Origin: Pelomonas cellulosilytica
GTDB taxonomy: Bacteria; Pseudomonadota; Gammaproteobacteria; Burkholderiales; Burkholderiaceae_C
Assembly (NCBI RefSeq): GCF_021353265.1
Contig: NZ_JAJTWU010000005.1
Span: 62,001 to 126,000, forward strand
DNA length: 64,000 nt
Direction: 5' to 3'
Shown here: positions 28,965 to 37,274 of the stretch, one piece after another
Position numbering within the stretch: position 1 is the stretch's first letter
How the letters are laid out: the number at the start of each line of letters is the position of its first letter
Position numbers and translations under genes: made by a program
Notes under the pieces: generated by a model
The model's database searches: none
What the model saw: the letters and a program-made list of their open reading frames with translations, nothing else
What the model was told of the DNA's origin: nothing

Positions 28965-29429
28965 ATGCCCGCCCTTGAGAAAACCATTGACCACGGCACG
29001 CTGCGCCGCCTGGTGAGTGCCGGCGCGCACGTCGGCGCGGAGATCTTCGGCCAGGCCGGGAGCTGGGGTGTGGTCATCAACTACGGCCGGGCCAGCCAGA
29101 CGCTGGCCGCCGCCCGTGGTGAGCCCCGCACCTTCCGCAAGTTCGAGACACTGGCCAGCTACCTCAAGGACATGAGCATCACGGAATGCACCGTCCACCT
29201 GGCCGAGTTCGAGCCAGGCGCGAAGGAGATCCAACCCGGCACGGAGAAGCGCCGCGTGGTGGCCTCAGATCGGCTCAAGGCGGCGCACGCTGCCGCCGCA
29301 CACGACCAGTGGGTCAAAGAGTCAATCGCGGCTTCGCTGGCCGATCCAGCGCCCAACCTGCAGCATGACGAGGTGATGCGCCAGGCGCGCGCGTTGATCG
29401 CCAAGAAGCGCAAGCAGCATGCCGGCTAA
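28965..29429 (+). CDS. Antitoxin of a type II toxin-antitoxin pair (ParD-like)
   Basis: 154 residues from ATG 28965 with AGGAG nine bases upstream. The N-terminal half (LEKTIDHGTLRRLVSAGAHV, SWGVVINYGRASQTLAAARG, FRKFETLASYLKDM) resembles a DNA-binding/prevent-host-type domain. The C-terminal half (ASDRLKAAHAAAAHDQWVKE, SIAASLADPAPNLQHDEVMR) matches the toxin-binding tail of ParD-like antitoxins. It is about twice the usual antitoxin length. The toxin gene overlaps its end by 11 bp, so the pair is translationally coupled and probably autoregulated. Confidence 0.82.
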   Translation: MPALEKTIDHGTLRRLVSAGAHVGAEIFGQAGSWGVVINYGRASQTLAAARGEPRTFRKFETLASYLKDMSITECTVHLAEFEPGAKEIQPGTEKRRVVASDRLKAAHAAAAHDQWVKESIAASLADPAPNLQHDEVMRQARALIAKKRKQHAG

Positions 29430-29739
29430 GCCGCCCGCCAAACTGCGCCTGGAATGGCGGTCACGAGCCAGCGCCAACCTCCTGCTGATCGTGGCCGAGA
29501 TCGCCGAAGACAACCCAGACGCCGCCGACAAGCTCATGAACGAGATCGAAAGCAAGGCTGCGGCCCTGCTCGACCACCCCAGGATTTACAAGCCCTCGCC
29601 GCGGGCCAAGGGCCTGCGCGAAATGGTGGTCCGGCCGAACTACGTGGTGTTCTGCCGGGAGTCACCCACGTTGGTGGAAATCGTCAACGTGATCCATGCT
29701 CGTCGGCAGTGGCCTCCGATCAAGCGTCAAGCCAAATGA
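29419..29739 (+). CDS. RelE/ParE-family toxin
   Basis: 106 residues. The ParE-type fold is readable: LEWRSRASANLLLIVAEIAE, NPDAADKLMNEIESKAAALL, KGLREMVVRPNYVVFCRES and VEIVNVIHARRQWPP. The conserved Arg/Lys and the C-terminal HARRQWP are typical. ParE toxins poison gyrase and RelE toxins cleave mRNA; which applies here cannot be decided. It starts inside the antitoxin gene. Confidence 0.88.
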   Translation: MPAKPPAKLRLEWRSRASANLLLIVAEIAEDNPDAADKLMNEIESKAAALLDHPRIYKPSPRAKGLREMVVRPNYVVFCRESPTLVEIVNVIHARRQWPPIKRQAK

Positions 29740-32680: not shown

Positions 32681-32870
32681 TCACTGACTGACGGTTTCAC
32701 GCGGTCGGATGCGCGCAAGCCCGCAGCACGCCTGCTGCTGCGGCGGGTCGGCGTCGGCACTCGGCAGTTGCAGCGTGGTCAACGTCTCCAGGGGCAGGGG
32801 AGCGCGCTTGCCGGTCAGGCGCAGCACTTCGTCGACGGTCACCGGCCGGCTCTGATCGGCTAGCCGCCCT
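32681..32870 (-). pseudogene. IS21-type transposase (IstA-like) C-terminal fragment
   Basis: A frame without a start reads DQSRPVTVDEVLRLTGKRAP, LPLETLTTLQLPSADADPPQ and ends at TGA 32681. The VDEVLRLTGxRAPLPLETL tail fits an IstA-like transposase and precedes the IstB remnant on the same strand. Assignment rests mainly on this tail and on the neighbouring gene. Confidence 0.5.
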
Positions 32871-33126
32871 TGTCTTGCTCGTCAAGGCCGACGAACTTCG
32901 CTGGATTCACCAAGTCGTACAGGGGAACGCCGATTGCATGGGAGAGTGCATCGGCATTGTCCATAGAGATGTTGATCGAGCCGCGCTCAACCCGGCTCAA
33001 GTAGCCCCTCGGCACACCCGCATCCAATGCGAGGCTCTCCTGCGTCATGTCCTTAAGACGCCGAGCCCTGCGCAGATTCCTAGCAAACACCTCGCGCGCG
33101 GTCAGCGTTGATTTTTCCTTGGACAT
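32860..33126 (-). CDS. XRE-family transcriptional regulator
   Basis: 88 residues from ATG 33126. A single helix-turn-helix: FARNLRRARRLKDMTQESLA, LDAGVPRGYLSRVERGSINI, then SMDNADALSHAIGVPLYDLV. It is intact, acidic at the end (FVGLDEQDKGG), and has no second domain. Such small regulators are common on mobile elements and beside restriction or toxin genes; its target is not evident. Its 3' end overlaps the start of the IS21 remnant. Confidence 0.88.
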   Translation of the reverse strand: MSKEKSTLTAREVFARNLRRARRLKDMTQESLALDAGVPRGYLSRVERGSINISMDNADALSHAIGVPLYDLVNPAKFVGLDEQDKGG

Positions 33127-33408
33127 GACAACGAGCATCGGGTTATGCGCCTTGCCACTCCACACCATTGAAAGTACATTAAGTTCACTTTGATGAACAT
33201 TAAGGCACTTTTAGAGCATTCTTGTAGTTATAAGTTGAACCTTTGTGCGAGGGCCCATGCCGCGCTTGGTAGCGGGCCGTCAACCGCTGTGAGACGTCGA
33301 CGTGGTGGCGCATCGCCATTGCTGATGGCGTGCGGACCAGTCGTCACTCGCCGGACAGATGGAACAGCGGCAGAAGCGCGCAACTCGCTGTGTCCTAAGG
33401 AGAAATCT
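33127..33408. other. Intergenic region upstream of the Mutator-like/ECF operon
   Basis: About 280 bp, AT-richer at 33,160-33,250 (repeated AAGTnnAnTTnnG motifs such as AAAGTACATTAAGTTCACTTT). A frame open here lacks a ribosome site and was not called. Likely contains promoters for the divergent XRE gene and the operon on the right. Confidence 0.4.
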
Positions 33409-34002
33409 ATGCCCTTGTTCTTCATGGATTCCAGCCGGTGGTTCAGGCGCCCTCTGTGCTGCCGGTACTTGGCCGTCCGGTTCGATAGGCTGCGCCTGCC
33501 GATGGTGCGCGGGGGATTGGTCGCCGACGCCGATTGGCATTGGGCGGTGGGCTTCATCACCGACGGCCAATTCGAGGTGCTCGGCGCGTGGCGCAACGAA
33601 AGCGTCGAAACTCCCCAGCGTGTCGCCCAGGACCTCCGGGACCGAGGCATCGAGCGGATCAAGGCGCTTGCTGGCGATGCGCCACTGGTCGCGGCCATCG
33701 AGGGCTTCCGTTCAAAGGCGTGCCGTCAGAGCATGACGGAGCTCGCTGAGAGCGGCGTTTTCGGGCCGCGCATGCTGCGGGCCATTCGTTGGACCGACGC
33801 TGCGGCGCAGCGAGTGCAATGCCGCGTGCAGAGAGCTGCGCGGTCGTGCGGGCCATTGGCCGACGACGACGCGGCGGCCGACTTCATCGCGCAGGCGTTT
33901 CAACGGGCGGACCGCGATCTGCTCCATGACCGACTGGATCGAAGGGGCCTCGCACCGTACGGTCAGGGAGCCTTTGTGGATTCGCTGGCACGCGCCGCCT
34001 GA
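33409..34002 (+). CDS. Short protein resembling the catalytic region of Mutator (IS256-type) transposases
   Basis: 197 residues from ATG 33409 with an excellent ribosome site (AAGGAGA, six bases before). The stretch WHWAVGFITDGQFEVLGAWR, NESVETPQRVAQDLRDRGIE, RIKALAGDAPLVAAIEGF follows the IS256 pattern (…vGxxxDGxxEvLGxWxxExxxxxxxVxxDLxxRGxxxxxxxxxDxxxxxxAIExxFP…), so two of the DDE acids may be present. The protein is half the size of a transposase and lies 5 bp before an ECF sigma gene in one operon. It may be a domesticated fragment; family assignment is by eye and tentative. Confidence 0.6.
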   Translation: MPLFFMDSSRWFRRPLCCRYLAVRFDRLRLPMVRGGLVADADWHWAVGFITDGQFEVLGAWRNESVETPQRVAQDLRDRGIERIKALAGDAPLVAAIEGFRSKACRQSMTELAESGVFGPRMLRAIRWTDAAAQRVQCRVQRAARSCGPLADDDAAADFIAQAFQRADRDLLHDRLDRRGLAPYGQGAFVDSLARAA

Positions 34003-34007
34003 ACGCC

Positions 34008-34502
34008 ATGTCGGTGCGGCTGCTGAAGAATTGGCAGGACATCCTCTCAACGGTGCGCGGAGCGCTGCAGCGTCGCGGGCGCACTGCGCATGAAGCAGAC
34101 GACCTGGTTCAGGAAGCCTGGCTGCGTCTGGCCCGCTACGAAGAAGAGAAGCAGCCTGTGCAGCAGCCAGAGGCCTTCTTGATGCGCACCGCCCTGAACC
34201 TGTCTATCGACGCGTACCGTGCCAGCGCATGTCGTGGCGAGCATGTCTTGCTAGAGGACGCCGTGCTGATCGACGCAACCCCGTCTATCGAGGCAGTGCT
34301 GCTGGCAAAGGAACGGATGGCCCGTTTGACAGTGGGGCTGGGTCGTTTGAGCGAGAAGACCCGAGATGTTTTCCTGGCCCATCGAGTTGACGGGCTGCCC
34401 TACGCGGAAATTGCAAAGCTGCACGGCATCAGCGTCACGACGGTTCATGCCCACGTTGCCAAGGCGACGCTGCGCCTGACCAGTTGGATGGAAGGCTGGT
34501 AG
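34008..34502 (+). CDS. ECF RNA polymerase sigma factor (FecI-like)
   Basis: 164 residues. Region 2: RRGRTAHEADDLVQEAWLRL, ARYEEEKQPVQQPEAFLMRT, ALNLSIDAYR; region 4: LGRLSEKTRDVFLAHRVDGL, PYAEIAKLHGISVTTVHAHV. This is the FecI-type group, normally followed by a FecR anti-sigma and a TonB-dependent receptor. Neither is downstream. Instead it follows the Mutator-like gene by 5 bp. The regulator and targets are therefore unknown. Confidence 0.93.
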   Translation: MSVRLLKNWQDILSTVRGALQRRGRTAHEADDLVQEAWLRLARYEEEKQPVQQPEAFLMRTALNLSIDAYRASACRGEHVLLEDAVLIDATPSIEAVLLAKERMARLTVGLGRLSEKTRDVFLAHRVDGLPYAEIAKLHGISVTTVHAHVAKATLRLTSWMEGW

Positions 34503-35375
34503 CCGTGGCGCGGCCGGGCCGCCGCCTCGCCGGCGGCGCGAGGCGAGCAGCCACTCGTCACACTTGTCACCCAAGATCTCGCAGCGTGGGCGGCCGCCTG
34601 GCCGGCCCGCCCGCATGGGCCCGAAAGGTGTCGCGCCAAGGATGTGAATGCCAGGTGTGGAAGGCACGTCCGTCGCGCATCGCTGGGCCTTCGTGCGCTG
34701 CGTGGACACCTGGCGGGAGGTGGCGGGCATCTTGCGTGCTTCGTTTTTGCGACTCATCCTCCCGACCCGGTGCTCCAGTGCAATACGCGGCGCAGTGGGG
34801 CGGCGGCGACCGCGAGGCGCTGGCTCGGGAGGTAACCGATTTGGATGTCGTCGGCTCGCGTGATGGCGGGTTCGAACTGGTCGGTCCATCGCTGTGACGT
34901 CTCGTCAACCCCGGACCGGGAGCGACCGGCTCTGGCCAGCGCCGTGGCGTGCCAACCTCGGCACCGCTCGACCCCTTGAAATATGCCCTGGACACGTGCG
35001 CAGCTCTGTCCCGGCGGCGGTGCCGGTGTGAGTCAGGTCAATGACGCGCGCAGGTGTAAGGGAAAGTAAAAGTCGGGCAACACCAAGTGGCCTGGACGTT
35101 TTAGTCCGCCAATTTTCTGGTCCACCTTCATCGGTGGTTTCACGATCCCCCGGGACTGGGACAGCGGTACGGCGAGACATTCGTTCGGTGAATTCCTTCA
35201 AACCCGCCATCGCCGCGTGACGTTGAGCGCGATATGTGAGTCGCGGTCACCCTGCTCGCGCTTTGCCCCGCGCTGTCGCTCATCGCCTGTCGCGCCTAGA
35301 TTGGAGTTCGGTGCTGCACGCCATGCCATCGCTGTGCGGCTTGTATGTCGTTGAACGAATGCGGCGGGGGTACCC
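34503..35375. other. 873-bp stretch without a supported gene
   Basis: Several overlapping frames, all Arg/Pro-rich shadows. One minus-strand frame (34905-35210, starting MAGLKEFTERMSRRTAVPVP) has a natural N-terminus but no ribosome site and becomes atypical later. AT-rich tracts near 35,060-35,130 could be a transfer origin or promoter for the mobilisation genes; I see no nic site I can name. Confidence 0.4.
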
Positions 35376-35634: not shown

Positions 35635-36294
35635 GTGGATGAGTCGCAATGCAGGCCGGAGCCAGAGCAGCTGGTGCTGCGCGACGCGGCGACCGCGCAG
35701 CTCCTGAAAGGCCTTGAGATGCCGGCCGCCCGGAGGAAGAAGTTCTCCAACGATCCCTTGAAGCTGCAGTTCCACCTCGGCCCCATCGGGCCGCGCCTTC
35801 GCGAACACGCGGCTCGCTCGGGAACCTCGATGGCCGCGCTGGTGCGTCGGGCGACGCTGCGGATGCTCGACGAGCAGGTACCGACGGTCGGCAGCGCCGT
35901 GGCCCCACCGTTCGAGCAGTCCGCACGAAACGTGCGCTTTCGTCTCTACCTGCCCGCCGCCTGCTGGCAGGAGCTCACCGCCCGCACACGGGCGGCGGAC
36001 ATGACGCGGGGCGAATTCGTGTTGTCGCTGCTGAAGGGCTTGTCGCCGCCCCCGCTTGCCGCGGACCACAAGGCCGCGGTGCAGGCCCTTCGGGACTCGA
36101 CTGATCGGCTTGCGGCGATGTCCACCGATCTCGGCGAATTCTTGCGACTGCTGAAGCGCACGACGGATACTGACGAGTCCCTGGCCCCCTATCGCGAAAG
36201 CATCGGGTCGCTCGCCGCCGTCGTCATGGAACACATGAGGGCAGCTTCGGTGCTGATTGCCGAACTCAAGCCTTACAGAAGGGCGCGGTGGTAG
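35635..36294 (+). CDS. Mobilisation accessory protein (MobC-like), upstream of relaxase
   Basis: 219 residues from GTG 35635, preceded by AGGAGG. Two similar segments look like ribbon-helix-helix units: KLQFHLGPIGPRLREHAARS, GTSMAALVRRATLRMLDE and VRFRLYLPAACWQELTARTR, AADMTRGEFVLSLLKGL. A C-terminal helical region follows (LRDSTDRLAAMSTDLGEFLR). It overlaps the relaxase start. By position it is probably the DNA-binding partner that recruits the relaxase to oriT; no named family was secured. Confidence 0.6.
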   Translation: MDESQCRPEPEQLVLRDAATAQLLKGLEMPAARRKKFSNDPLKLQFHLGPIGPRLREHAARSGTSMAALVRRATLRMLDEQVPTVGSAVAPPFEQSARNVRFRLYLPAACWQELTARTRAADMTRGEFVLSLLKGLSPPPLAADHKAAVQALRDSTDRLAAMSTDLGEFLRLLKRTTDTDESLAPYRESIGSLAAVVMEHMRAASVLIAELKPYRRARW

Positions 36295-37274
36295 CGATGG
36301 GACGCGATATCGACGGGCTCCTGGTGCAATGGGGCGACCGGTTGTTCTATCCCGGCAATCGGATCGAACCAACTGATCCGACACCGCGGCTGAAGGCCCG
36401 GGCCGCTGCGATCAGGCGGCACATCTCGGCGCAGATACGCCGTGCACCCCAGGTGATCGTCAGGGTGGCCGGAGGTGGCCGGGGCATGGGCGCCATCGCC
36501 GACCACCTGCGCTACATCACCAAGTCCGGGGCTTTGGAGTTTGAAGACGATCGCGGCACAGTGCGCGACGGCAAGGAAGCGCTGCGCGATCTGATGAATG
36601 GCTGGCGCCATGGCAGCAGGTTCATCGCGGAGGTCGAAAAGCTGCGGGAAGCGGTCAATATCATGCTCGCCATGCCTTCGGGAACGGACCCGGAGGCGGT
36701 CAGGGACGCGGCACGCGAGTTCGCGAAGATTGAGTTGGCAGGCCATCGCTATGTGATGGTGTTGCACAGGCACCAGACCAGTCCGCACGTCCACCTCTGC
36801 GTCAAGCGCGAATCGATCGCCGGCCAGCGCCTGAGCTGTGGCCGCCCCGACCTCAAGCGGTGGCGCGCCACGTTCGCAGAGCGTCTGCGGTCACGGGGTG
36901 TCGAGGCGGAGGCAACCAGCCAGATCGCCCGCGGTGCAACACGGAACTTCGACTCGCTGTGGCGCCTGAAGGCGAAAGACGAAGGTCGGCTGAAGACGAG
37001 CATCCGTCCCGTCAAGACAGGCCCGGTCTGCGAGCGCGCCCGTGACGAGGCTATGGCGTGCTGGGGCCAGATCCTGAAGGCGCTCGCGGCGTCCGAGCTG
37101 GAGTCGGACCGCGAGCTGGCACCGCTGGTCGCCGACTTTCTCTGCCGCACGCCGTACATCCACGACGTGCTGCGGCGTCATCCCGAGGCGCTTCCCGAGG
37201 CGAGGAAGCGCCTGGAGGCGCACCCGCAGCGGGTGGCGGCCCTGGACCGGGCCGGGCCGGAGTGGGGACGATGA
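36288..37274 (+). CDS. Relaxase/mobilisation protein (MobA/VirD2 type)
   Basis: 328 residues from GTG 36288 (ATG 36297 also possible); the start overlaps the accessory gene's stop. Landmarks: VIVRVAGGGRGMGAIADHLR, YITKSGALEFEDDRG, and the metal-binding motif III HRYVMVLHRHQTSPHVHLCV followed by KRES. These match MOBP/VirD2-like nicking enzymes that cut at oriT and stay attached to the 5' end. The C-terminal part is short and basic, with no helicase or primase domain. No type IV secretion genes are in view, so the element could at most be mobilised by a helper. Confidence 0.85.
   Translation: MVAMGRDIDGLLVQWGDRLFYPGNRIEPTDPTPRLKARAAAIRRHISAQIRRAPQVIVRVAGGGRGMGAIADHLRYITKSGALEFEDDRGTVRDGKEALRDLMNGWRHGSRFIAEVEKLREAVNIMLAMPSGTDPEAVRDAAREFAKIELAGHRYVMVLHRHQTSPHVHLCVKRESIAGQRLSCGRPDLKRWRATFAERLRSRGVEAEATSQIARGATRNFDSLWRLKAKDEGRLKTSIRPVKTGPVCERARDEAMACWGQILKALAASELESDRELAPLVADFLCRTPYIHDVLRRHPEALPEARKRLEAHPQRVAALDRAGPEWGR

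Follow-up and report, generated by a model that had tools for sequence, protein, structure and literature searches.

A transposase-derived gene heads a family of FecI-type sigma factor operons in Roseateles and related genera

How does half a transposase come to stand directly in front of a sigma factor gene, and is it there as debris or as a working part of the operon? The question is raised by a locus of Pelomonas cellulosilytica (assembly GCF_021353265.1, contig NZ_JAJTWU010000005.1), within a stretch of 64,000 nucleotides that was analysed as a whole and is called the window here. An earlier note on this DNA had reported a half-size protein resembling the Mutator transposases, encoded behind an excellent ribosome-binding site and ending 5 bp before the gene of an extracytoplasmic function (ECF) sigma factor, and had proposed it as a partner of that sigma factor. 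We call the first gene and its product T. In broad outline this idea turned out to be mostly right: the genes form a real family that is conserved and has expanded, and T is almost certainly an exapted, catalytically dead transposase core that is a component of the sigma operon. The presence of a transposase part without cutting residues as the first gene of a family of sigma operons suggests that Roseateles-type bacteria have tamed a transposase into a regulatory part.

The layout was as described, with an AAGGAG ahead of T and the TGA stop codon of T followed after 5 nt by the ATG of the sigma gene at 34008; a profile search found both ECF sigma regions, 2 and 4, in the second protein. The Mutator likeness was borne out by the hidden Markov model search that the note had proposed, in which the window T matched Transposase_mut (PF00872) with an E value of 1e-7 and 31.6 bits (gathering score 21) over profile positions 150-248 of 379; the match to the NCBIfam IS256 model (9e-8) was under the cut-off of that model. 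The note had spoken of an IS256-like middle. The similarity to IS256 stands, but more than the middle has been kept, namely the first half of the catalytic domain and the C-terminal helices, with the insertion domain cut out. A class of longer relatives (long T) retains the helical insertion domain as well. Alignment with a full-length IS256 transposase (L059) placed the beginning of T at the catalytic domain, so that the N-terminal dimerization, DNA-binding and helix-turn-helix (HTH) domains are absent.

The RNase H-like core homologous to Transposase_mut, which characterizes IS256/Mutator transposases, is present in T, and the catalytic DDE (Asp-Asp-Glu) triad is not: the window protein has D, D and Q at these positions, and a full triad was found in one of 50 T proteins (L150), or four of 50 if a tolerance of one column is allowed, versus 25 of 25 IS256 transposases. 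The active-site columns are not conserved across the family; the conserved residues are C17, Y20, W45, G59, W61, R79 and G80. T proteins are 171-329 aa long, with start codons chosen by us. In the tree, T and IS256 are split by a branch of 1.4 substitutions per site with a support of 100, in a comparison with 25 IS256 proteins from one order and with several weak nodes within T (35-57); a value of 40 shown for the T clade after re-rooting was read as belonging to the neighbouring branch. T may go back to several independent tamings from unsampled IS256 lineages, instead of having a single origin. T derives from an IS256 transposase but is not one, as two defining features that were tested are missing.

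The arrangement recurs well beyond the window. We measured 50 T-sigma pairs, 32 of them in nine of 20 Roseateles genomes and 18 in ten other genera of the family, and the two genes were adjacent in every one, with a spacing of -28 to +35 nt. The source genome alone has six T genes, each followed by a sigma gene. Within Roseateles, the sigma clade (E 1e-30) was found in exactly the nine genomes with T. Its 34 matches comprise 31 with an intact T directly upstream, two with decayed-looking T pieces (clear in G002:C30; in G001:C75 a single weak match that a second scan did not recover) and one without any T (G009:C3:46717). A further Roseateles T (L056) has its sigma gene cut by the contig end. 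In a sample of 399 genomes of the family, the sigma clade was present in 20 at E 1e-45 (51 matches), and the other genera show both states, T-sigma pairs and sigma genes without T, the latter in several genomes. The T search matched 60 of these 399 genomes, most of the matches being IS256 by open reading frame (ORF) length and score. From 28 places that were fetched, 18 were kept as T with an intact sigma gene; six (L165, L166, L168, L171, L172 and L173) were rejected as IS256 or pieces of it, three (L152, L153 and L170) were left out because the contig ends before a possible sigma gene and one (L154) because its sigma gene is decayed. The unfetched weak matches of 60-90 bits may hold more T genes, as did L254, which adds a pair in an eleventh other genus, outside the 50 measured. 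It should be noted that the count of other genera depends on the classification, since one of them (G126) corresponds to a record named Roseateles sp. Across the whole order, 45 of 399 genomes matched T at E 1e-12; outside the family one place was inspected (L166, an IS256) and the others were judged by ORF length and score. A tblastn search of 72,556 plasmid records brought up no T on a plasmid: 80 records matched, none with 80% cover, the 30 matches listed cover less than half of T, and where a gene is annotated in these it is an IS256 or mutator transposase.

One genome of another genus, G223 (L154, L155, L156 and L244-L250), has nine sigma-clade matches, of which only two are immediately preceded by an intact T, together with T copies whose sigma gene is decayed or that lie at a contig end, and forms a natural series of gain and loss. 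Extra truncated or frame-broken copies of T were found 5' of the intact gene in five of 31 fetched Roseateles loci (L031, L034, L037, L041 and L053), a pattern that would fit tandem duplication or replacement of T.

The note had also proposed a selection test. Compared with L031-L034, the window T has a ratio of nonsynonymous to synonymous substitution rates (dN/dS) of 0.22-0.35, with 0.09-0.15 for the sigma gene, and over 22 chosen pairs the ratio for T was 0.18-0.65, below 1 in all of them. These values indicate that T is under purifying selection. Synonymous divergence (dS) was higher in T than in sigma in several close pairs (L155/L156, L157/L158, L162/L164 and L050/L051) and lower in L027/L028 and L027/L035, and differences in both directions suggest that the T-sigma border has undergone recombination or gene conversion. 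In L027/L028/L035, L155/L156, L157/L158 and L162/L164, T contrasts strongly in dS with the sigma or FecR gene beside it, in either direction.

Translation points to a further tie between the two genes. A Shine-Dalgarno (SD)-like site is present ahead of T in 32 of the 50 pairs and ahead of the linked sigma gene in nine of the 50, the frequency at random ATGs being 19.5% (n = 3920). Because T usually has a ribosome site and sigma usually none, translation of sigma looks coupled to that of T. Among sigma genes without T, nine of 18 had an SD-like site (Fisher p 0.013 versus linked sigma genes), three further loci that could not be placed being excluded; the contrast is weak, as a single genome contributed six of the nine as paralogues and the start codons were picked by another rule.

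The pair is embedded in a larger unit, part of which the note had missed. With a custom profile, made from nine HTH proteins that come from eight of the same T loci, we found a divergent gene for an Xre-type HTH protein no more than about 600 nt upstream of T at 49 of the 50 loci; at the fiftieth (L163) Pfam found an HTH_3 domain. In control searches the profile gave no match within 700 nt of 75 background genes and none at 32 IS256 transposases; for most of the latter about 1 kb of upstream sequence was available, but for three of them only 55 bases. Of 19 sigma loci without T that were examined, 12 also have a divergent Xre gene within 700 nt. Several kinds of Xre protein are found next to T, and their sequences show no clear co-variation with those of T, sigma or FecR, so that the position seems fixed and the regulator itself swapped. 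Downstream, a strong FecR match (<1e-60) follows sigma in 34 of the 50 loci; the total of such matches is 35, but the one at L034 belongs to a neighbouring divergent unit and was not counted. The FecR of L035 has DUF4880 and FecR domains. A long ORF for a TonB receptor lies downstream in ten loci (L030, L046-L049, L055, L162, L163, L164 and L167) and was checked by family search in five of them; at L055 an STN domain was matched at E 1e-5, just under the gathering score. In all three long-T operons tested, the last gene is related to isopeptidases (NF033523; E 1e-42, 1e-37 and, for a fragment, 1e-6), with scores below the curated cut-off of 400 bits. In L030, L048 and L055 the long-T operon continues into both a TonB receptor and a relative of lasso-peptide isopeptidases. 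The unit has been expanded into paralogues, up to six per genome, and many of these are reduced to T and sigma with or without FecR.

How T acts on this unit can be put together only conditionally. Because T-less units exist, the T core would have been added to an older unit of a divergent Xre gene and a sigma-FecR pair. Translation of sigma would depend on that of T through their adjacent or overlapping stop and start codons, so that both proteins are made together. Folded T would then contact the new sigma factor, or the sigma-FecR complex, in the cytoplasm, which is the weakest step, and might serve as a chaperone, a brake or a selectivity factor by which the paralogous switches are kept apart; transposition would not be expected from it. 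On general grounds (the position in the operon, co-translation, and the loss of DNA-binding and catalytic parts) we favour a mechanism in which the T protein contacts sigma or FecR; we give it about an even chance of being right, more than nucleic-acid binding or a role as leader alone. Taken as a whole, contact step included, the statement that T is a transposase exapted as a cytoplasmic regulatory subunit of a FecI/FecR switch could go either way. More tentative still, and in our view somewhat doubtful, is a specific version in which T is a co-translated, fast-evolving subunit that sets the activity or paralogue specificity of the sigma/anti-sigma pair and represents a new mechanism of ECF sigma control.

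Several observations weigh against such a role. At least 16 of the 51 sigma matches in the family sample have no T despite about 1 kb or more of upstream sequence. T is also far less conserved than its neighbours (mean identity 29%, versus 58% for sigma and 51% for FecR), and part of its length may for this reason be only loosely constrained. Distances of T and sigma do correlate over the 50 pairs (Mantel r 0.43, reached by none of 2000 permutations), but the correlation disappears when FecR is taken into account (partial r -0.10 in 34 triplets, with 1923 of 2000 permutations as high; 0.05 if the FecR of the neighbouring unit at L034 is included). T and FecR remain correlated given sigma (partial Mantel 0.48, none of 2000 permutations as high; 0.375 with L034), and the conclusions are the same with and without L034. 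Within FecR, sigma tracks the cytoplasmic part (0.83) over the periplasmic one (0.66), as its known contact predicts, while T tracks the periplasmic part (r 0.59) more than the cytoplasmic part (0.41). Since the periplasmic part carries more of the signal, the correlation with FecR looks like shared locus history and not contact, and FecR was rejected as a contact partner named by co-variation. Xre was likewise rejected (r 0.05, with 93 of 1000 permutations as high), though its position is constant. Co-variation does not name a partner for T. The partnership with sigma proposed in the note is supported as genetic linkage and probable translational coupling; as a direct protein partnership it is only a possibility.

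Among other explanations, the one that survives best, although it is rather unlikely, is that T is a nucleic-acid-binding transcription regulator, in the manner of FHY3/FAR1, with a core that would bind RNA or promoter DNA close to genes that depend on sigma. T is located in a regulatory operon, the C-terminal catalytic domain is described as binding the transposon tip in the IS3, IS256 and IS30 families (PMC7780238), and the Mutator-derived FHY3/FAR1 proteins are transcription factors (PMC13306707). However, the NDB and HTH domains, to which binding of the transposon end in ISCth4 is ascribed (PMC7780238), are those missing from T, and its active-site columns are unconserved. It is less probable that T is a translational leader only, with a frame kept for loading ribosomes onto the sigma start and an idle protein. 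SD sites that favour T over the linked sigma gene, and the very short gaps, are what this would predict, but a leader would need neither 171-329 aa nor an intact fold, and dN/dS below 1 in all the chosen pairs and the residues conserved across the family speak for a protein that matters. We give very little weight to T as a dominant-negative fragment that inhibits IS256 transposition and protects its own locus. Apparently full-length IS256 transposases do occur in relatives, and T is a catalytically dead piece of such an enzyme; yet T has nothing that corresponds to the leucine-rich dimerization domain described for ISCth4 (residues 1-56, PMC7780238), the branch given above separates it widely from IS256, and linkage to one sigma clade would not be expected of an inhibitor. 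A chance junction of transposase debris and a sigma gene, for which it could be said that the window region is an island containing decayed genes and that FecR is broken there, is practically refuted by the same-strand position of T directly before sigma in Roseateles and at least ten other genera, by adjacency in all measured pairs and by purifying selection. Neither of the two outcomes that the note had named as refuting its idea, a lack of profile similarity to Mutator transposases and a pairing that occurs only here as a chance junction, has come true.

The transposase core in a sigma operon can be set beside several known systems. With FecI/FecR/FecA signalling the T loci share the FecI-type ECF sigma factor, a FecR with the two domains named above and, in a fifth of the loci, the receptor ORF; they differ by the transposase-derived gene before sigma and the divergent Xre-type gene at all 50 loci, by the lack of a visible receptor in most short-T loci and, in the window, of an intact FecR. 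The ends of the long-T operons recall the FecI/FecR pairs of lasso-peptide isopeptidase clusters such as that of rubrinodin (PMC9266682), although the isopeptidase relatives fall short of the cut-off; the passages of that review on FecI, isopeptidase and TonB mention no transposase-like gene. The IS256/Mutator transposase ISCth4, as described in PMC7780238, has the same RNase H-like core and, like long T, a helical insertion domain; unlike it, T is without N-terminal domains and, in 49 of 50 cases, without a full triad, and forms an operon with sigma. FHY3/FAR1 and other transposase-derived transcription factors are likewise Mutator-type transposases tamed for gene regulation, but they are eukaryotic, whereas T is bacterial and has lost the N-terminal DNA-binding domains. 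A search of the open-licence literature by title and start of abstract returned no paper on a transposase core in a sigma operon, which is not proof of absence.

Bacterial cases of such taming are, to our knowledge, RNA-guided relatives of TnpB and Cas12. TldR proteins are nuclease-dead TnpB relatives, and a dead Cas12f, on which the literature search listed no paper, is linked to an ECF sigma factor. Like T as proposed here, these are dead transposon-derived enzymes of the RNase H fold recruited to transcription control, but they are RNA-guided RuvC proteins, whereas T is a DDE transposase core. TldR proteins have been described as RNA-guided transcription factors (PMC13418256), and taming of transposases as transcription regulators is documented in plants and animals; these plant and animal factors and bacterial TldR would be the nearest functional analogues of T. 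A DDE core fixed in a sigma/anti-sigma operon, with many paralogues in one family, would show that mobile elements have also entered transcription control by a separate route. If T is indeed a co-translated specificity subunit, bacteria would have tamed a DDE transposase as a specificity component of RNA polymerase. The roughly fifty T genes are a ready set of natural variants for probing the effect of the core on sigma, for which sigma-FecR units that lack T could serve as controls.

The window copy is a cut-down version of the unit (Table 1). The note had reported neither FecR nor receptor, and it is true that no intact FecR adjoins the window sigma gene; a remnant does, since tblastn with the FecR proteins of relatives gave pieces at about 34660-34860, 3' of sigma, and the DNA similarity to FecR-carrying relatives stops near 34740. 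Among the ORFs and called genes near the pair no TonB receptor was noticed by eye, no receptor profile search having been made, and no isopeptidase gene was noticed beside it, also by eye. Because so many of the other loci have a strong FecR after sigma, and ten a receptor ORF, the absence of an intact FecR in the window is a local loss, and that of a receptor probably is one too.

Table 1. Features of the T-sigma unit in the window (positions counted from the first nucleotide of the window)
Feature	Position	Strand	Remarks
Xre-type HTH gene	32860..33168	-	Divergent, positionally conserved partner gene; HTH_3 E 6e-14
Ribosome-binding site of T (AAGGAG)	33397..33402	+	Read directly; six nt 5' of the ATG of T
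T, very probably a domesticated IS256/Mutator transposase catalytic core, 197 aa	33409..34002	+	Without full DDE triad, N-terminal domains or insertion domain
ECF sigma factor, FecI-like	34008..34502	+	Sigma70_r4_2 8e-16, Sigma70_r2 1.6e-10; no SD of its own seen
Decayed 5' remnant of FecR gene	34503..34860	+	Ends approximate; tblastn pieces and DNA similarity

Further downstream there is a relaxase gene at 36288-37274 (PF03432, 7e-9), and the DNA over it (36028-37120) is 66-67% identical to a block that follows the T-sigma unit in L031 and L032. Genes resembling those of type IV secretion systems or integrases were seen by eye near other copies, e.g. L033, L034, L039, L045, L051 and L053. Together with the shared relaxase block, these neighbours indicate that many T-sigma copies may sit on integrative or mobilizable elements. 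On the other side of the unit, two short ORFs of the plus strand at 28965-29739 overlap at their ends and, judged by eye, resemble a toxin-antitoxin pair with a ParE/RelE-like second member.
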